A DNA stretch of 64,000 bases, from contig NC_019567.1 of NCBI RefSeq assembly GCF_000317895.1, forward strand, positions 3,658,001-3,722,000. The letters are read 5' to 3'. Positions 53,745 through 63,300 of this stretch are shown here, one piece after another. Source of the DNA: Bdellovibrio bacteriovorus str. Tiberius (lineage in GTDB: Bacteria; Bdellovibrionota; Bdellovibrionia; Bdellovibrionales; Bdellovibrionaceae). The first letter of the stretch is position 1, and every line of letters starts with the position of its first letter. The notes below the pieces were generated by a model. The model was not told the DNA's origin, did no database searches, and worked only from the letters and a program-made list of their open reading frames with translations. The position numbers were made by a program, and so were the translations under genes.

Positions 53745-54314
53745 ATGGCATTGCATGAAACCCGCACCATTCAACTGAAAAACGGCGATTCCATCATTAT
53801 GAGGCCTGCTTTGGTCAGTGAAGCCGAAGCCTTACTGACCGCCTTTCTGGAAATTCTGCCCACTTCCCCCTACATCCTGAGCACAGCGGAATCCGCGGCA
53901 AGGAAAACCGTGGAAACTCAAATGAAGTGGATCACCGATGCCAACGAAGACCCTAAGGGTGCTTTGATCATCGCTGAACACCAAGGTCGCATCATCGGCA
54001 TCACCAACATGGTGGCGTTCAAAGACAGCAAACGCAGCCACCGCGCGGGCTTGGGAATGTCAGTGCATCACGATTATCGCGGACAGGGATTGGGCGAAGC
54101 TTTATTGCGTCGTCTGATTGAAGTCGCACAAAACATTGAAGGCCTGAGCTTTCTGGAACTGAACGTGATGAGCGCGAATCAACCGGCGTTCAAACTGTAT
54201 GAAAAACTGGGATTCCAGCAGGTGGGCTATTTGCGCGAAGCATATCGCCAACCCGATGGGGTTTTCACCGATGACATTTCCATGTCACTGGATCTAAGAG
54301 CTCGCCCTAGCTAA
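53745..54314 (+). CDS. GNAT-family N-acetyltransferase
   Basis: A 189-residue acetyltransferase with the acetyl-CoA loop VHHDYRGQGLGEALLRRLIE and the C-terminal NQPAFKLYEKLGFQQVGYLR motif, close to the RimI/PhnO-like group that acetylates amines or protein N termini. An AAAGGAGG site precedes the ATG. The 3' end overlaps the convergent M3 peptidase gene by 8 nt. Not closely similar to the acetyltransferase at 48542. Confidence 0.9.
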   Translation: MALHETRTIQLKNGDSIIMRPALVSEAEALLTAFLEILPTSPYILSTAESAARKTVETQMKWITDANEDPKGALIIAEHQGRIIGITNMVAFKDSKRSHRAGLGMSVHHDYRGQGLGEALLRRLIEVAQNIEGLSFLELNVMSANQPAFKLYEKLGFQQVGYLREAYRQPDGVFTDDISMSLDLRARPS

Positions 54315-56100
54315 GGGCGAGTTTTTCGAATTCTTCAATCTTGCGATTAATGACCGCGATGGATTTTCTCCAGAACTCTGGCTTGCGAATGTCTTCGCCC
54401 AGGTGCTTTTGCACCAGATCTTCCGCGGTCATGCGGCCGGTGTCGCGCAGGATGTTGACGTAAGTCTTCATGAAGTCCTTACCCAATTCTTCACGACGGG
54501 CGTAAACACTGATGCTGAACAGATAACCGAAGGTGTACGGATAGTTATAGAAGCTGATTCCCGACATCGAGAAATGCAGTTTGGTTGCCCAGTACATTTT
54601 GTCATTTTCGCTCAAGGTGCTGCCGTACCATTTGCTCCACGCCTCGTCGGTCAGCTTGCTTAGCTCATCGGCGCTGACAGTGCGCTTTTCACGCATCTCA
54701 TAGAAGCTTTTTTCAAAGTCATAACGAGCCGGGATATTCAGCAGGAACGCCGTTGCTCGGTCCATCTCGCCCCACGCAAATTCGATTTTTTCTTCACGGG
54801 ATTTGGCATTGGTCAAAAGCACGTCGTGCAAAAGGGTTTCCGAGAAAATGCTGGCCGTTTCAGCCAACGTCATCGGATAACCACATTCAGCGATGGGCAT
54901 GTCGCGCATCACCCAAGAATGATAGGCATGGCCCAGTTCGTGCGCGAGTGTTGAAATATCACTGTTAGAACCCATGTAGGTCATGAACACACGGGGTTCA
55001 CGTTTTTTACGGAAACCGGTGCAATAAGCGCCGTTGCGTTTGTTCGGAAGAACTCGCGCTTCAATCCAGTGCTTATCAGCCATCATATCCACAAACTGCG
55101 CCATGTCCGGTGAAGCCTGAGCAAAGGCATCCTTGATCATTTTCAAGCCTTCTTCATAGCTGCGCTCTGATTTGGAAGCCGAAATCGGGCTTTGTGCCAG
55201 CAAGTCCCAAGGGTCCAGAGACTTTTTACCCATCAGCTTTGCCATCGCCAGATTCGCACGGCGGGACATATCGACATTTTCATAACAAGCCGTCAGCATC
55301 GCATCCAAAGTTTCTTGAGTGATACGGCTATAAAACAGGGACTGATCCAGATAGTGGGCCGGCTTCACTTGCGAACGTTTCTTGATCACCTCGTGGCGCC
55401 AGCCAGCCAAGGCATTCAAGATCGAAGAAGCTGTTTCTTTGTGCGTGGTCCATGCGTTTTGAATGGACGTCCACGCCACACGACGGGTTTCCTCATCCTG
55501 ACTGCGAATCAATGCCGATGCTTTCGCCAGACCCACAGTTTCCGTGCGGTCTTTGAATTTCATTTCACAGCGCATGGTTCCGCTTAAGTTAGTATATAGC
55601 TCGCCCCACGCATGCAAGCCCGGCATTGAAAGTGCCTGCAACAAAGTTTCTTCTTCATCCGAAAGCATGAATGGCTTTTGTGTGCGTTCCTGGCTCCAGT
55701 CAAACTTCGCCGGCGTCAGTTCCGGGTGGGAAAGGATCTTGTTCAGAATTTCTTCTGAACAGCGTTTCATGAAGTTATCCACCGGGATCAGGATCTGCCA
55801 CATACGGGAATTAAGCGCCATCACCTCTGATTTTTTGGCTTGAGCCTCGTTCAAAGTGCTGTCCACCGACAGATGACAATTCAAGAAGGTCGACATATTA
55901 CCAACCAAAACTTGGGTCGCTTCCACGTCGATCCAGATTTTTTGGATCTTTTCCACTTCGTTTTCAAACGGAGTCTTCAGGGATTTGACGTCCTTTTCCA
56001 GCTGATCCACCTGGGATTTCACCAGATCAAATTCAGCCTGAAATTCAGGAGAGTTGTAAGAAGGATATTCAGATTCTAGATTCCAGGCCATTTTTTCCAT
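54307..56100 (-). CDS. M3-family oligoendopeptidase F
   Basis: A 597-residue cytoplasmic metallopeptidase. The zinc site is AHELGHAYHSW (first His about residue 387) with a downstream Glu in ETASIFSETLL. The N-terminal helical domain and the C-terminal FSISVYARREELG helix fit PepF, which trims oligopeptides of about 7-23 residues. The start is uncertain between ATG 56100 and ATG 56091 (MAWNLES, preceded by GGAAAA); the longer frame to 56133 is unlikely because it crosses the upstream gene's terminator. Confidence 0.9.
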   Translation of the reverse strand: MEKMAWNLESEYPSYNSPEFQAEFDLVKSQVDQLEKDVKSLKTPFENEVEKIQKIWIDVEATQVLVGNMSTFLNCHLSVDSTLNEAQAKKSEVMALNSRMWQILIPVDNFMKRCSEEILNKILSHPELTPAKFDWSQERTQKPFMLSDEEETLLQALSMPGLHAWGELYTNLSGTMRCEMKFKDRTETVGLAKASALIRSQDEETRRVAWTSIQNAWTTHKETASSILNALAGWRHEVIKKRSQVKPAHYLDQSLFYSRITQETLDAMLTACYENVDMSRRANLAMAKLMGKKSLDPWDLLAQSPISASKSERSYEEGLKMIKDAFAQASPDMAQFVDMMADKHWIEARVLPNKRNGAYCTGFRKKREPRVFMTYMGSNSDISTLAHELGHAYHSWVMRDMPIAECGYPMTLAETASIFSETLLHDVLLTNAKSREEKIEFAWGEMDRATAFLLNIPARYDFEKSFYEMREKRTVSADELSKLTDEAWSKWYGSTLSENDKMYWATKLHFSMSGISFYNYPYTFGYLFSISVYARREELGKDFMKTYVNILRDTGRMTAEDLVQKHLGEDIRKPEFWRKSIAVINRKIEEFEKLALS

Positions 56101-56159: not shown

Positions 56160-58214
56160 TTAACGCTTTTCGATGTCGTCTTTGGCTCTTAGCACCGTAG
56201 AGCCCAGATCATTGATGATCTTGCTCAGTTCCGGCGACAGGGTTTTTCCCATCACCTGCAGTTGCAAATGCTCGCCCTCATAGAATGGCCCAACCAACTT
56301 GTCGTCATTCCAAGCCTGCACGAATTCATCTTCAAAGCCACCGATGACTTTTTGATCAAACAGCTGCGCTCCGAATTCACGGAAGCTGCCTTGCAAAGTG
56401 TCCGGATTCAGGTTGGAAGAACCCACCAGCATCACTTTGCCATCCACAGAAGTGATCTTTCTGTGATTTTCCTGGTGATAGCCTTGTGTTTTGCCATTTG
56501 GGAATTTCGCTTCGATACCCAGTGTACGACGGGCACGAACTTCAACCCCATGGCGCAGCAGCTGATCCAAGTACAACGTATTTGGCAATCCACCCAGGCT
56601 GAAATTGCCATTGTGGTCAGCCAGTATGCGGATCTTCAAACCCGGAACCTGAGCTTTACGCTTCATCAACGCATCGTTGATGTACTTGTCATAAATGAAC
56701 AGATGCTCCATATAGATGTGGCTTTCAGCCTTCATGATCATATCCACCAGCATATTGCGAGTGTCTTTGATCTTCCCATCCACATTGGCTTCTGCCAGGC
56801 GCACGGACTGATTACCCACCGCCGGGAAGCTGGATCTATCAACACGGAACCAGGAAAGAATCTGATCGCGGTTCTTCAGGTAGGCTTCATTGCCGTAACC
56901 TTCTTCCTTATAGAAAAACCACTTCTTTTCATTCGGGTCCGTCGTCAAAGCCGCTTCCACGTCATCGTAGTAAGCCGCCTGCACCAGCGCCGCCGCCGGG
57001 CCTTTCACGTAAAGAGCATTATCATAGTAATAGCCACCACTGTGATCCGACCAGTTCTTGGAACCAAAGTAAGCCTGAGGCGCGTCCGATTCCGGGTCCA
57101 CCACAATCACCTTACTGTGATCGATCTTGGATTCGTAATAAGTATTGCGCTTTTCCAGAGCCTTGAACGTCTCTTCCGTTTTAGGCACCAGGTTGGTGAT
57201 ACCAAAAGGGATCCCCGGTGGATGGCGCTGAATATTGGCCTGAAGCAGATACACCGAACCTTTCAGGCCCGGATCCGTCGCCGCGCGATCTTTAATATAT
57301 TTAAAGATCGGCATCATCTCGTCCTTCATGTTGTAGTTCGTCGCATAGTCATGCAGCATCAACACCTTGAAGTTCGGATTGGCCTTTTTCTTTTCCACCG
57401 CCTGATCCAGCAGGAACTTGCTGAGTGTGCCACCCATCGTCCCCCCGAAAAGGAAGATATCAATGAACACGGAATCTTTCGCAGAAAGAATCATGTCACG
57501 GATCTTGGCAAACATCGGATCTTTGAAAGACGGATGTCCTTCATCGTCCTTGTGCAAAGGCATCTTCATATAAGGCTGATTGAAATCCAACACCCCGCCG
57601 GCAAAGATCACACGGTCATTAAACCACTGGATTCTTTCCGGAGAGATCTCATTATGACTGACCAGCTCAACAATGTTGCCCGGGACAAAACCCCCGGCAG
57701 ACAACGAGTACGGGTCCATCTGTGGGAAACGCTTCTGCAGATTTTCTGTCAGCTCGCGGCTGGTCAGATTCAAGTTCGTTGCACCCGCCCAGGAATTCAT
57801 CAAAGAACGGGCTTCATTCTGAGAAGCTTTGTCCTTTATCAGTGGATTGTCAGCATAATCACGCAAGGACTGTAAACGCATCTGCAACCAGTACTGCATC
57901 ACCTTGGCTTCGTTAGCAGAATTCTTTTTAACAAACTTCCAGTATACCAGTGGCAACAGAATCTTTTCCGGAACCACTGCATCGTTTGTCTTTACAAAGG
58001 CACGCGCTTTGGTCTGTTCTGCGGCAGGCAATTTTTTGATTTCCTGAAGCAAAGCCTCCGGACGACGGCAGGCTTCGGCCGCAAACATCATGTCGTGATT
58101 ATTCTTATAATAGTCCATGGCGGCCAGACGTTCCTTCAGGGACACCTGCGCGGTTTGCGCCATCGCCGTTGAAGCCATCACTACGGAACTCAAAATCATC
58201 AGCGTCTTTTTCAC
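56160..58214 (-). CDS. exported phospholipase D-family protein with two HKD motifs
   Basis: A 684-residue protein with a signal peptide (MILSSVVMASTAMA). Both HxKx4D active-site motifs are present: HSKVIVVD (His366, Lys368, Asp373) followed by GSKNWSDHSGG, and HRKITSVD (His584, Lys586, Asp591) followed by GSSNLNPDT. The two halves would form one PLD-type active site acting on a phosphodiester (phospholipid or nucleic acid). The first 200 residues are helical and not recognised. It overlaps the preceding gene by 4 nt. Confidence 0.88.
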   Translation of the reverse strand: MKKTLMILSSVVMASTAMAQTAQVSLKERLAAMDYYKNNHDMMFAAEACRRPEALLQEIKKLPAAEQTKARAFVKTNDAVVPEKILLPLVYWKFVKKNSANEAKVMQYWLQMRLQSLRDYADNPLIKDKASQNEARSLMNSWAGATNLNLTSRELTENLQKRFPQMDPYSLSAGGFVPGNIVELVSHNEISPERIQWFNDRVIFAGGVLDFNQPYMKMPLHKDDEGHPSFKDPMFAKIRDMILSAKDSVFIDIFLFGGTMGGTLSKFLLDQAVEKKKANPNFKVLMLHDYATNYNMKDEMMPIFKYIKDRAATDPGLKGSVYLLQANIQRHPPGIPFGITNLVPKTEETFKALEKRNTYYESKIDHSKVIVVDPESDAPQAYFGSKNWSDHSGGYYYDNALYVKGPAAALVQAAYYDDVEAALTTDPNEKKWFFYKEEGYGNEAYLKNRDQILSWFRVDRSSFPAVGNQSVRLAEANVDGKIKDTRNMLVDMIMKAESHIYMEHLFIYDKYINDALMKRKAQVPGLKIRILADHNGNFSLGGLPNTLYLDQLLRHGVEVRARRTLGIEAKFPNGKTQGYHQENHRKITSVDGKVMLVGSSNLNPDTLQGSFREFGAQLFDQKVIGGFEDEFVQAWNDDKLVGPFYEGEHLQLQVMGKTLSPELSKIINDLGSTVLRAKDDIEKR

Positions 58215-59422
58215 AGGACACCTCCGTTCACCAGAGCATCCAGATTCAGGAACTTCTCCATTGAGGACTCACACTTTTTCAAATATTGGATACGGGCGGA
58301 ATAAAGCGCCTGCGTTTCGTTGGCCGTACTGTCCTGATCGCGCGAGGAATAGTAATTCACAAGCTTCACGCGGGAACGGTCACGGTCGAGCTTTTTCTCT
58401 TTCAAATCATAAACGATCTTTTCAAGGTTGAAGCTGATTTCCTCAGTAAAGGATTTCTTACTTTCCACAACGAACTGACCCGTCGGAATGGATTTTCCGG
58501 TTTTTTCATATTTATCCGGCATCAGCTCGTTGCGGCCTTCATTGTTTGAAGCCACAAGGCCCGGGAAAACTTCGATGGTTTCTTCCGTCGGGATGATGTT
58601 TTTCAAGCTGAAATTCTTGTACAAATCCACGGTGTAGAACAACGGCACACCCGGGCCGGACTTTTTAGCCGACAGCGTGTAACCTTCACAGGACACGGAT
58701 TTTTGCACTTCGCGGTTCAGGCGATAATAGCGGCGATAACGGGCAAAGCCCTTCACACCGTTCTTTTTAATGCTTGGCAGACCGAATTTAGGGCGGGTAT
58801 CCAGAATCTCGACATAGAAGGTCACAGTGCCACCGATATAATCGGCCTGGCCTTGAGTGGCCGGGATCAATACCGAGTTATTATAAACAGTGCCGGTGTC
58901 CGTGGCTTTTTCAAGTTGTTCCCATTTAGAGCTTAACGCCCCGGTTTCATTAAAGCGCACCAGTTGGTTGCTGTTAAGCTCTGCCGCATAATCGTTTCTT
59001 TGGTTCGGCTGTGGCAGGAACGTCAGGTCCACCTGCAAGCCGGTGTTGATGATCTTGTAAACACGCATGGTCTTTACAAAGTTTTCAATCATCGCGTCTT
59101 TCAGATTTCCGGCAGCCAGTTTAGCAAGGCCCTGTTCCGGATTTTCCACACCCAGAGTTTCAATGATCGCCTGATTCAGTGCCTTGCGGGCTGTTTCAGA
59201 CAAATACTTTTGATCACCGTTTGTATGGAACGAGATTTTCATTGGATGACGATAAGGTTTTAGCGGAGAATCGCCTCCGATCAGATCGGCCAGCGCCTGC
59301 GTCTGACCATCTGAGATCGTGTATTTCTTTTCACTGGCTGGCTCGCGCATCTCTTTGTGGGTGCAATGCACAGCCATCAGGGCTGCCCAGGCAATCAAAG
59401 CGGATTTCATCGTCATCTTCAT
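58211..59422 (-). CDS. exported protein of unknown function in the PLD operon
   Basis: A 403-residue protein with a short hydrophobic start ending in AVHC. The Cys suggests a lipoprotein, but His at -1 is not a normal lipobox. The body is mainly beta: repeated strand pairs such as GGTVTFYVEILDTRPKFGLP and FARYRRYYRLNREVQKS. Residues 330-403 look helical with SARIQYLKKCE near the end. No family recognised. Lying between two exported hydrolase-like genes, it may be a partner for them. Confidence 0.65.
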   Translation of the reverse strand: MKMTMKSALIAWAALMAVHCTHKEMREPASEKKYTISDGQTQALADLIGGDSPLKPYRHPMKISFHTNGDQKYLSETARKALNQAIIETLGVENPEQGLAKLAAGNLKDAMIENFVKTMRVYKIINTGLQVDLTFLPQPNQRNDYAAELNSNQLVRFNETGALSSKWEQLEKATDTGTVYNNSVLIPATQGQADYIGGTVTFYVEILDTRPKFGLPSIKKNGVKGFARYRRYYRLNREVQKSVSCEGYTLSAKKSGPGVPLFYTVDLYKNFSLKNIIPTEETIEVFPGLVASNNEGRNELMPDKYEKTGKSIPTGQFVVESKKSFTEEISFNLEKIVYDLKEKKLDRDRSRVKLVNYYSSRDQDSTANETQALYSARIQYLKKCESSMEKFLNLDALVNGGVL

Positions 59423-59431
59423 GATTACTTC

Positions 59432-61015
59432 CTACAGATTCTGGAATTTTTTGAATTCAGAGTAATGTTGATCGTCGGCTTTCAACAGAAGGCCCAAGGA
59501 ATAAGGCAGATCCTTGTAAACGCGTTTACCGTCGTAATACATGATCACCGGCTCAAAAGTTCTTTGGTTGCCGATCGCCAGCTGAGCCACGTTGTCCGGG
59601 CTGATGGTGTAACGGCGCAAAGTTTCCTCCAAAGGCCATTTCACGTCACCAAAGACCACGTAAGCAATCTCGGAACAAACGATACGCGTGTGCGTGTGAA
59701 CATCGAAGTTGAAGTCATACTCTTTGCCGATCTGGGCAATCGCCTGCAAAACGGCCTTGCGACGATATTCATCCGTGATGTTGGAACGAGTGTCACGCAC
59801 CACCAGGAAGTCGTCGATATTCAGGAAGTGCTCCAAAGTGTTCAATTCCACACCCGGACGCAAAGCTTCCACGATGCGGTGACCAGCACGGATTTTCGCC
59901 TGAATTTTGGCTGGGATCTGATCCCAAACCTGCAGCTCTTTCAATTGCTCTTCGGTTCCCAACCAGATGGCCACGTGACCATAGTGGCCCGGGATCATCT
60001 TGTCAGTCAGACGGAATGGAGTTTTCTCCATCAGAATGTCCAAAGGTTTCATTTCCCCAATCAGGTTGGCTTTTTCAGATTCAGACATGTTGTAAAGAAA
60101 ACCTTTACGGGTTTCCACCAGGCCGACCATGTTACCAAAGCCCATGCTCACACCGTAAGACACCGCACGAACACCGCGCTTACCACGCAAAGTCAGGCGA
60201 TTCCACAAATTGGCAATGGCGTCTTTGAAGCCTGTACCCGTCTTGTCGTTTTTAACAGCCAGATACCAGATACTGGATTGAGTCAGAGTATAAAGCTGAG
60301 CTTCTTCCGGACTGGTTTTTTCACCATTAGCGCGACGCCAAGCCATCACAGAGTCGATGAACTTGATGGCGTCCTCGATCTGATCACGACGGTGTGTGGA
60401 GGAATAGGAATCGGCAATTGCCTGCAATGCACGCTTCTGAGGAACATCATAATTCAGAACATAGCGCAAAGAATCGTTGTCATTGAATGGCTGGATCGCC
60501 ACCAGATAGTTGTCCATCAAAAGCAACGCTGAAGCCAAAGCCATCTGCATGCGGAAGATCTGCTTTTCACCTTGCGCGTCTTTTGGATCCACATTCAAAA
60601 CATTATAAGTTTCGTACGTGTCCTTACGAACATGGCGATCTTTCTTTTCAGTCCTGGTGCCTTTGTAAGGGGCAAGCTTCACCTGATTTTTGCCAGAGAA
60701 GTATTCACCTTCAGCAATCGCCAGATCCAAGAGTTTTTTGCGTGTTTCCAGGTACTTCGCACCCATATCACGAACCCATTCACCCTCAGAACGGCTTAAA
60801 GACACATCACCCGTCTGGCCCAGCTTCTTTTCATCAGCAAAGCGCAAGGCTGTTGCGCGGAAATCCAAAGCTTCCGCCATCAAAACCTGCAGGTCATAAT
60901 ATTGAGGATCTACATAATAGGTAGCCGCTGGCGTTCTTTCCGTAGAAGATTTGAACGAAGAACAAGCGCCAACAAATGCTGTGAGTGCACACAACAGAAC
61001 AATAGCGAAACGCAT
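59432..61015 (-). CDS. lipoprotein with YiiX/NlpC-P60-like papain-fold domain
   Basis: A 527-residue lipoprotein (lipobox FVGAC). Residues 320-500 match the permuted papain-like YiiX/YebB group: His347 in HYGHVAIWLG and the nucleophile Cys447 in RIVCSEIAY, with a conserved EYDFNFD just before. Such enzymes hydrolyse amide or ester bonds in wall or lipids. The N-terminal 300 residues are helical and unknown. ATG 61015 is chosen because the earlier ATG at 61030 lies within its GGAGGG ribosome-binding site. First gene of the operon. Confidence 0.78.
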   Translation of the reverse strand: MRFAIVLLCALTAFVGACSSFKSSTERTPAATYYVDPQYYDLQVLMAEALDFRATALRFADEKKLGQTGDVSLSRSEGEWVRDMGAKYLETRKKLLDLAIAEGEYFSGKNQVKLAPYKGTRTEKKDRHVRKDTYETYNVLNVDPKDAQGEKQIFRMQMALASALLLMDNYLVAIQPFNDNDSLRYVLNYDVPQKRALQAIADSYSSTHRRDQIEDAIKFIDSVMAWRRANGEKTSPEEAQLYTLTQSSIWYLAVKNDKTGTGFKDAIANLWNRLTLRGKRGVRAVSYGVSMGFGNMVGLVETRKGFLYNMSESEKANLIGEMKPLDILMEKTPFRLTDKMIPGHYGHVAIWLGTEEQLKELQVWDQIPAKIQAKIRAGHRIVEALRPGVELNTLEHFLNIDDFLVVRDTRSNITDEYRRKAVLQAIAQIGKEYDFNFDVHTHTRIVCSEIAYVVFGDVKWPLEETLRRYTISPDNVAQLAIGNQRTFEPVIMYYDGKRVYKDLPYSLGLLLKADDQHYSEFKKFQNL

Positions 61016-61251: not shown

Positions 61252-63300
61252 ATGAAGTCCTGGACCGCGGCCCTTCTTGTTCTGGCTCTTTCACCTTTGG
61301 CTTTGGCCCAAACCAAACCCACAAAGACTCGAGTGTGGCCCCAAGAACTTAAGATAACCGGCAATCAAACCGTCGAATTGTACCAACCCCAAGTTGAATC
61401 GCTCGCCCAAAACGACATCAAGGCACGGGCCGCGTTTAAACTGACCCGCGACGGCAAGGACTATTACGGCAGCTGTAAAATAGAAGCCAAAGCCGAAATC
61501 AACAAAGAATCCGACCTTGTTGAATTAAGCCGGATCCGTATCAAGAACCTTCAGGCACCCACCGCGAATATCACCAACAACGACTTGCAAACCGAAATCG
61601 AAAAGCAACTGGATGGGAAAACCGTGTCCTTTTCTTACAGAGCTTTGGTCGATAACCTTTCGCTGGCTGCCGGTTCCCACATCAAACAACCCGATCTGCA
61701 CAATGCACCGCCTGACTTCGTATTTGCATCGGAACCCTCGATCTTGATTATGATCTCTGGCGAACCACAATGGACTGATTCATCCGGCGCCAAGGAAGTG
61801 AAACGTATCCTGAATTCCAGTGCGCTTTTCCTGCATCAAAAGGATTCAAAGGACTTCTATCTTTGGGCCCTGGGAAAATGGTTCCAATCTGCCGACCTTA
61901 AAGGTCCCTGGCAGGTGTCGAAATCCGGTCCGACATCAAAATTTGTGATGATTAAGGATAAACTGGTCAAAGATAAAAAAATTGATCCGCTGGAGGGTAA
62001 AGGCCCTGACGGTAAACCTTTGTACCAGCCCGGAGTCACTCCAAAAATCATCGTCGCAACAAAACCCACCGAACTTTTGCAATCCACCGGTGAACCCAAG
62101 TATTCGGCAGTCGAGGGCACGGCTTTGCTTTATATGTCGAATTCGCCCAATTCCATCTTCATAGATTCCAAAGATCAGAATTACTATACTCTTGTATCCG
62201 GGCGATGGTTCCGTTCTGCCAGCCTTCAGGGAACGTGGAGCTATGTCAGCGGCAAACAACTGCCAAAAGACTTTGCAAAGATCCCGGTGAAAAGCCCCGT
62301 GGCCGAGGTGCTGGTCTCTGTTCCCGGCACCCCTCAGGCAAAAGAAGCAGTTGTTGTCAGCCAGATTCCCCAGACCGCACAAGTAAAAAGAGACCTTAAA
62401 CCCAAAGACATATCCTGTGACGGCAAGGTAAAGTGGCAATCCATCCCGGGAACTAATTTGAAGTTCGCGCAAAACTGCAACAGTCCGCTGATTGAAGTCA
62501 CTGCGGAATCATTCTATCTGGTTCAGGATGGCGTGTGGTTCACGGCGACCTCGGCAAAAGGCCCTTGGCAAGTGGCTTTGGCAGTCCCGGAAGAAATCTA
62601 TAAAATTCCCGCATCATCCCCGCTTTACTATGTCACTTATGTTCACGTCTATGGCTCCACATCAGACATGGTCACAGTGGGATATACGCCGGGCTATCAC
62701 GGAACCTTTGTATCTGCCGATGGCACAATCGTTTATGGAACCGGCTACAACTATGACTCTTACACCTCAGGCAATCAGTGGTATCCCGCCCCAAGCACAT
62801 ATGGCTTTGGTGTCGGCTATGGCTGGGGCTATGAGGCCGGATTCTTTATGGGGTTTTCAATGGGTTCGCTGATGTATCCCTGGGGTTGGGGATACTGCTG
62901 CTACGGCCCCACCTTTGTTAACATCAATATCAACAACACCTACACCAACTGGGGTCGCCACACCGTCATCTCTGGACCGGCTGGCCACGGAATCACCACC
63001 AACACCATAGGACAAACAAAATTCATCCGCGGCAACGACAGTTCCAACATCTATGCCACACATGATGGTCAGGTCTATCGCCGCACGGATTCCGGCTGGC
63101 AAAAAAATATCGGCCCGGGATCCTGGGAAAATGTCGATCGCAAGAACACCGCGGATCTGGATCACATGCACGGTTCCCGGGATATCAACCGAGATGTGGC
63201 CCGACCACCCACAGGACGTGACTTTTCAGGGCGCCCCCAACTGCAAGGAGGAGGAGGCTTCCGCGCAGGTGGTTTCCATGGCGGTGGTTTCCGCAGATAA
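61252..63300 (+). CDS. large exported protein with three Trp-rich repeats of about 110 residues
   Basis: A 682-residue protein with a signal peptide (LVLALSPLALA). Three related units are spaced about 110 residues apart, each with the core aromatic-x-x-x-x-x-G-x-W-F-x-(S/T)-(A)-x-x-x-G-x-W: FYLWALGKWFQSADLKGPW (from 202), YYTLVSGRWFRSASLQGTW (311) and FYLVQDGVWFTATSAKGPW (421). Each ends with a Pro-containing loop. Residues 500-560 are rich in Gly/Tyr/Trp, and the tail is Gly/Arg-rich. This resembles proteins labelled carbohydrate-binding family V/XII; ligand and location are unknown. Confidence 0.7.
   Translation: MKSWTAALLVLALSPLALAQTKPTKTRVWPQELKITGNQTVELYQPQVESLAQNDIKARAAFKLTRDGKDYYGSCKIEAKAEINKESDLVELSRIRIKNLQAPTANITNNDLQTEIEKQLDGKTVSFSYRALVDNLSLAAGSHIKQPDLHNAPPDFVFASEPSILIMISGEPQWTDSSGAKEVKRILNSSALFLHQKDSKDFYLWALGKWFQSADLKGPWQVSKSGPTSKFVMIKDKLVKDKKIDPLEGKGPDGKPLYQPGVTPKIIVATKPTELLQSTGEPKYSAVEGTALLYMSNSPNSIFIDSKDQNYYTLVSGRWFRSASLQGTWSYVSGKQLPKDFAKIPVKSPVAEVLVSVPGTPQAKEAVVVSQIPQTAQVKRDLKPKDISCDGKVKWQSIPGTNLKFAQNCNSPLIEVTAESFYLVQDGVWFTATSAKGPWQVALAVPEEIYKIPASSPLYYVTYVHVYGSTSDMVTVGYTPGYHGTFVSADGTIVYGTGYNYDSYTSGNQWYPAPSTYGFGVGYGWGYEAGFFMGFSMGSLMYPWGWGYCCYGPTFVNININNTYTNWGRHTVISGPAGHGITTNTIGQTKFIRGNDSSNIYATHDGQVYRRTDSGWQKNIGPGSWENVDRKNTADLDHMHGSRDINRDVARPPTGRDFSGRPQLQGGGGFRAGGFHGGGFRR

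Follow-up and report, generated by a model that had tools for sequence, protein, structure and literature searches.

Background

Two kinds of bacterial system are the natural points of comparison for an exported phospholipase D (PLD) encoded next to a partner protein: PLD effectors of the type VI secretion system (T6SS), such as Tle5, which come with immunity proteins, and lipases with their lipase-specific foldase Lif, in which a secreted lipid enzyme has a membrane-tethered periplasmic partner encoded by the adjacent gene. Here we analyze a locus in a window of 64,000 nucleotides (nt) from Bdellovibrio bacteriovorus str. Tiberius (NC_019567.1, positions 3,658,001 to 3,722,000), which at positions 56160-61015 of the window carries, on the minus strand, three open reading frames (ORFs): a lipoprotein with a domain of the Peptidase_C92 family (hereafter C92), a protein without a family match (X) and a PLD-family enzyme (PLD).

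The closest system described in the predator itself comprises the secreted endopeptidases Bd3459 and Bd0816 and the ankyrin self-protection protein Bd3460 (PMC4686830; this and all other papers are cited for the portion of their text that was available). The C92 domain belongs to the permuted NlpC/P60 enzymes, among which Tox-Act1 cleaves phosphatidylglycerol (PG) and phosphatidylethanolamine (PE) (PMC12994826) and YiiX has a hydrophobic pocket (PMC3142127); LnsA, a relative of these enzymes, is required for lipoprotein N-acylation in the LnsAB system (PMC7387801). Mass spectrometry of empty bdelloplasts, i.e. prey killed without invasion, has revealed PLD-like enzymes of the predator, namely Bd1257, Bd1516 and Bd3603 (PMC11003981).

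Results

Conservation of the X-PLD pair and of the three-gene unit

The ORF listing confirms the three genes where the original prediction had placed them, with 9 nt between C92 and X and a 4-nt overlap of the X and PLD frames (Table 1), and the co-conservation on which the idea of a common system depended is borne out. Among 290 genomes of the phylum, 44 possess X, 101 possess C92 and 77 contain PLD-type matches (the latter two counts include paralogues). When the neighborhoods of the 44 X genes were compared, PLD proved to be the next gene downstream in 43; in the remaining genome (G084) the contig stops within X, and another contig opens with a piece of X that PLD follows. C92 lies directly upstream of X in 16 of the 44, including one fused C92-X frame, and a wider profile added one further X adjoining PLD (in G168). 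Where C92 is absent, the 5' neighbor of X varies by genus and is peptide deformylase-like or TsaA-like, as named from our reading of the sequences; considered as possible members of the unit in family f18, these genes were read as context, since they differ among genera. As upstream genes and contexts are not shared between genera, X and PLD are conserved as a pair and not by general synteny.

In a pattern-based scan of named genomes, many of which overlap with the 290-genome set, X is directly upstream in 28 of 32 PLD loci, in one of them as a contig-edge fragment. The other four comprise two loci that begin at the end of a contig, the gene fragment of strain kdesi described below, and a locus from a record titled Lentisphaeria (L194) whose fetched flank lacks X, which occurs elsewhere in the same assembly; otherwise the record titles are of Bdellovibrionota type or bear the older name Deltaproteobacteria. 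The distance matrices of X and PLD are correlated (r 0.62 for 35 loci, with 0 of 2000 permutations as high), to which shared ancestry contributes. Because the arrangement recurs across the phylum it is no chance array; the unit is real and conserved, and the three genes probably form a working unit.

Within the genus, X was found in 8 of the 39 relatives searched, all eight belonging to the window's genus, which is represented by 24 genomes. The same eight genomes possess full-length PLD and C92, with an additional 3' fragment of PLD in G015 (strain kdesi) and a piece of C92 at a contig end in G002. The three genes follow each other in seven of the eight; in G016 the X-PLD pair and C92 are on separate contigs, C92 being internal to its own. 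Mean within-genus identity is 55% for X, 74% for C92 and 76% for PLD. Of the PLD gene, strain kdesi (L044, 7373-8452; L190) retains the 3' half alone, and it shows no match to X or C92; the locus is a remnant there.

Gene fusions

Fused genes make the strongest case for joint action of C92 and PLD. In one genome C92 and X form a single 941-aa frame (L127, G103), and in five genomes of one genus, all of the same family, frames of about 1000 aa (L157-L161) combine a full-length C92 relative with a C-terminal two-HKD PLD. The C-terminal half of these long frames was at first suspected to be X, a suggestion that we rejected, as it is a PLD. This PLD belongs to another subfamily than that of the window (profile E 4e-6 to 0.02), which indicates that C92 and PLD have probably been joined more than once.

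The PLD-family enzyme and its degenerate relatives

PLD matches PLDc_2 in two stretches (E 2.1e-19) and the Pfam model of the PLDc active site (E 1.1e-5), and both HxK(x4)D motifs that define the superfamily are intact in the window protein. Its signal peptide is of the signal-peptidase-I type (AMA|QT), and the N-terminal region of about residues 20-220 is a domain without assignment. None of the NCBIfam equivalogs (cardiolipin synthase, ClsB, NucT, PssA-like) is reached at its cut-off (at most 34.6 bits versus 211 to 787).

Both HKD motifs are kept in 36 of the 45 PLD frames covering them, a count that takes in the partial frames L044 and L155 and omits L118 and L131; in the other nine (L119, L123, L125, L129, L132, L134, L139, L153, L154) HKD residues are lost. 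In a tree of 37 PLDs, the seven degenerate members require four changes, at least three of which are forced by well-supported branches. The underlying alignment comprises 37 of 47 frames; the near-copies L036 and L039, L135, the very divergent L132 and L134, the fragment L044 and the frames cut by contig ends (L118, L131, L155, L152) were set aside. Gene pairs that include degenerate PLDs differ most at codon position 3, then 1, then 2, and their frames are free of stops, so these PLDs appear to be selected. X stands beside all nine; in L154 the contig edge leaves a fragment of it. Other families of the order encode exported PLD-family proteins of 806-848 aa (L046-L049), with no X or C92 in the fetched surroundings.

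Protein X

X had been described simply as an exported protein of unknown kind; its export signal stands, and more can be said. The hydrophobic N-terminal segment ends at Cys20, preceded by a non-canonical His at position -1, and in Bdellovibrio X is probably the second lipoprotein of the unit. Many X sequences of family f18 possess instead a hydrophobic, apparently transmembrane, N-terminal segment without the Cys, so that, as judged by the lipobox Cys or by this segment, X is a membrane-anchored protein. Together with the lipobox of C92 and the signal peptide of PLD, this agrees with the prediction that all three proteins carry export signals.

Few residues besides the R-Y-R-R-Y block (Table 1) are common to the 40 X sequences aligned, which represent 40 of the 44 frames (L036, L039, L122 and L134 were left out, and L127 was cut to its X part). 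Searches of Pfam and NCBIfam with the window X and the 40 sequences gave nothing beyond chance, the best match of the X profile in PDB had an E of only 0.2, and the lipase-specific foldase (Lif) family was not matched by any of the 40 at E 0.1. The AlphaFold model built from eight sequences is weak (pLDDT 56), and with it Foldseek returned no match at E 0.001 or below (best E 0.13). A second structure comparison with the same model ranked several chains that we take to be of the lipid-binding TULIP kind at Z 3.1-5.1, intermixed with uricase rows of equal Z; folds missing from its list carry no meaning. The resemblance may serve as a lead, no more, and we claim no fold for X.

The C92 lipoprotein

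With 81.6 bits against a curated Pfam cut-off of 27, C92 belongs to Peptidase_C92. Its catalytic domain (about residues 326-480) follows an N-terminal part (about 40-275) that appears helical in a poor model (pLDDT 49). The set of catalytic residues for permuted NlpC/P60 enzymes was taken from PMC3142127, and the corresponding H/E/Y/C tetrad is kept, in the permuted order, in all 28 sequences that span it (29 were aligned). Directly upstream of a solo C92 elsewhere (L164, 4382-5599), an exported protein carries RAPAA past its anchor.

A shared motif behind the membrane anchor

The RAPAA sequence is one form of a motif, R-x-P-[AS]-[SATN], which occurs shortly past the anchor in 25 of 39 X, 14 of 28 C92 and none of 46 PLD sequences, and in 11 of 328 other anchored ORFs; in seven of those 11 it is the active site of what appears from its sequence to be a phosphatase-like cytosolic protein. 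A 400-kb sample of HD100 type has 151 anchored ORFs, two of them with the motif: one encodes a PLD-family lipoprotein whose location is consistent with Bd1516, the other a lipoprotein that matches Zn-peptidases weakly. The motif may be a sorting or docking signal. A lipoprotein metallophosphoesterase (L124, 1812-3299) carries the variant RMPSS.

Probable correspondence with Bd3603 of strain HD100

In the HD100-type genome G005, Bd3459 is found at about 3.369 Mb (its alignment to PDB 5cec covers all 446 residues), the gene of a transglycosylase, at 3.476 Mb, fits Bd3575 (named in PMC7137782) and an exported nuclease-like gene at 3.485 Mb fits Bd3586; PLD follows at 3.497 Mb and is the sole PLDc_2 match between 2.3 Mb and the end. 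As these genes appear in the expected order and PLD is the only candidate, we infer from gene order, and not from a database identity, that the HD100 PLD gene is Bd3603. In the available text of the literature on these genes there is one relevant mention, that of Bd3603 in PMC11003981. The presence of Bd3603 in killed prey agrees with a prey target.

Boundaries of the unit

The original prediction gave the unit one strong terminator. A terminator-like site with an 8-bp stem does follow the PLD stop codon; 17 such sites were found versus 10.1 +/- 3.2 in shuffled sequences, so that a single one is weak evidence. The promoter search gave no convincing candidate (5 sites versus 8.2 expected). The oligoendopeptidase F gene at 54307-56094 was considered as a fourth member of the operon and rejected, the terminator-like site separating it from PLD; it follows PLD on the same strand in L036-L039 as in the window, and follows the PLD fragment in L044, and it does not do so in L040, L041 and L043. 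Divergently from the operon, on the plus strand (61252-63300), an exported protein of 682 aa without a Pfam match is encoded.

Table 1. Features of the three-gene unit (coordinates in the 64,000-nt window)
Feature	Position	Strand	Basis
C92 (permuted NlpC/P60, YiiX-like) lipoprotein, 527 aa	59432..61015	-	ORF; Pfam Peptidase_C92 E 9e-23, residues 326-480
C92 lipobox Cys18 (VGA-C18)	60962..60964	-	invariant in 8 Bdellovibrio sequences
C92 post-anchor R-x-P-A-A motif (R27-A31)	60923..60937	-	motif count
C92 predicted catalytic His347	59975..59977	-	28/28 covering; role by analogy with YiiX/BcPPNE (PMC3142127)
C92 predicted catalytic Glu383	59867..59869	-	28/28 covering; role by analogy
C92 predicted catalytic Tyr433	59717..59719	-	28/28 covering; role by analogy
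C92 predicted catalytic Cys447	59675..59677	-	28/28 covering; aligned to YiiX CSE residues by phmmer, E 0.52
X, anchored protein without family match, 403 aa, cognate PLD partner	58211..59422	-	ORF; PLD directly downstream in 43/44
X probable lipobox Cys20	59363..59365	-	invariant in 8 Bdellovibrio sequences
X post-anchor R-E-P-A-S motif (R26-S30)	59333..59347	-	R26 nearly invariant in 40 X sequences
X conserved R-Y-R-R-Y block (228-232)	58727..58741	-	R230 invariant, Y232 nearly invariant, 40 sequences
PLD-family enzyme, two HKD motifs, 684 aa, GTG start, type-I signal peptide	56160..58214	-	ORF; PLDc_2
PLD HKD motif 1, H366-x-K368-x4-D373	57096..57119	-	motif alignment
PLD HKD motif 2, H584-x-K586-x4-D591	56442..56465	-	motif alignment
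Intrinsic terminator-like site past PLD stop codon	56134..56153	-	8-bp stem, then TTGTTTTTCA

Discussion

A proposed lipid-attacking unit with a holder for PLD

Activity on lipids has been reported for permuted NlpC/P60 enzymes, and their combination with a two-HKD PLD suggests that cleavage of acyl bonds and of head groups is brought together in one exported unit. In our preferred explanation, to which we give a probability of about 0.45, the locus encodes a lipid-attacking unit of predatory Bdellovibrionota in which X serves as a membrane-tethered holder or chaperone of PLD. X would be made just ahead of PLD, from the overlapping frame, as its dedicated partner, and would hold or fold it at the predator's own envelope until release. 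PLD, freed of its cleavable signal in the periplasm, would pass to the prey, at least in HD100, and there hydrolyze the head-group phosphodiester bonds of phospholipids; the C92 lipoprotein would act in the same place by cleaving lipids at acyl-ester or acyl-amide bonds. Two elements of this scheme, the occurrence of Bd3603 in killed prey and the lipid activity of permuted NlpC/P60 enzymes, come from print and were joined by inference; the substrates, the role of X and the timing are our own deductions. Lipid attack and delivery to prey, considered apart from the role of X, are likely.

Several observations weigh against this explanation. X is missing from 16 of the 24 genus genomes, so that predation in general does not require it, and it is also missing from the genome that we take to be that of the epibiotic B. 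exovorus JSS. The earlier proposal of a coordinated system attacking or remodeling envelopes is partly supported, by co-conservation, by the fusions and by Bd3603 in killed prey; the genomes without X speak against a general role in predation. The unit of three genes holds together less tightly than X and PLD do: no C92 adjoins 28 of the 44 pairs, and in G016 C92 is unlinked. In nine of 45 PLDs HKD residues are lost, so that selection does not act on catalysis in every case; the models of X and C92 are poor, and the bdelloplast sample also contained some proteins of broken predators (PMC11003981).

Alternative explanations

The most serious alternative, less probable in our view and on the unlikely side, is that X is a self-protection (immunity) protein which would block PLD in the predator's envelope until PLD departs for the prey. 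The genus offers a precedent for such an adjacent pair, Bd3460 for Bd3459/Bd0816 (PMC4686830), divergence is more rapid in X than in PLD for 579 of 595 pairs, and X is anchored whereas PLD is released. On the other hand, none of the 40 X sequences matches ankyrin repeats of the Bd3460 type at E 0.1, and X is retained beside the HKD-deficient PLDs, which arose by at least three forced changes and would leave it nothing to block. It is because of this retention, for which relaxed or recent change in PLD may also account, that we prefer a holder or chaperone over an inhibitor, the two readings being close.

It is also conceivable, though distinctly improbable, that the unit remodels or recycles lipids of the predator's own envelope and that PLD reaches the prey by leakage or carry-over. 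The membrane anchors that C92 and X possess, as judged from their sequences, are in line with this, as are the products of predator breakage in the published sample; however, the authors of that study named Bd3603 as a candidate prey-damaging enzyme (PMC11003981), and the record titles in the pattern-based scan are nearly all of Bdellovibrionota type. That the PLD-family protein is a nuclease digesting prey nucleic acids, and no phospholipase, is the least probable explanation, suggested by weak NCBIfam NucT matches (E 2e-5, far below cut-off) but contradicted by a better, also sub-threshold, match to the cardiolipin synthase model (1e-8, the best in NCBIfam), by profile matches in PDB to phospholipases D and phosphatidylserine synthase (3.7e-6 to 5e-4) and by the link of PLD to the lipid-type C92 domain.

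Returning to X as a holder of PLD, a bolder extension can be formulated, which taken as a whole is rather doubtful: X would found a new family of membrane-tethered PLD holders in Bdellovibrionota, the R-x-P-A/S-S tag on X, C92 and other anchored enzymes would mark or dock a common lipid-attack machine, and in Halobacteriovorax-like lines PLD would have lost catalysis repeatedly while remaining under selection as a subunit that perhaps binds lipids.

Significance

Enzymes for the prey wall and one self-protection protein are known (PMC4686830); the present unit bears on how the prey membrane is broken and the predator's own is spared. Its conserved PLD, which has an obligate anchored partner and is linked through fusions to a cysteine enzyme of lipid type, provides a short list of candidate genes, and Bd3603, one entry of a published list of prey-corpse proteins, becomes a testable system. 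The lineages in which PLD is HKD-deficient and X nevertheless retained constitute a natural test of the role of X.

Comparison with known systems

Like Bd3459/Bd0816 and Bd3460, the unit pairs a predator enzyme for prey with an exported cognate partner encoded alongside; here, however, the enzyme is of the PLD type, the partner gene comes first, and its product is membrane-anchored and of no known family. C92 shares with the T6SS effector Tox-Act1 the permuted NlpC/P60 core, which makes an activity on lipid acyl bonds plausible by analogy, but, unlike that effector, it is a lipoprotein encoded in an operon and has a Sec signal and an extended helical region in its N-terminal part. A two-HKD PLD with a cognate neighbor gene is also characteristic of Tle5, likened here by description and not by sequence comparison, although PLD of the present locus carries a Sec signal peptide. 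Finally, the lipase-Lif system resembles ours in combining a secreted enzyme, probably lipid-directed in our case, with a membrane-tethered partner from the adjoining gene, while the partner here matches no Lif family and the enzyme belongs to another class.

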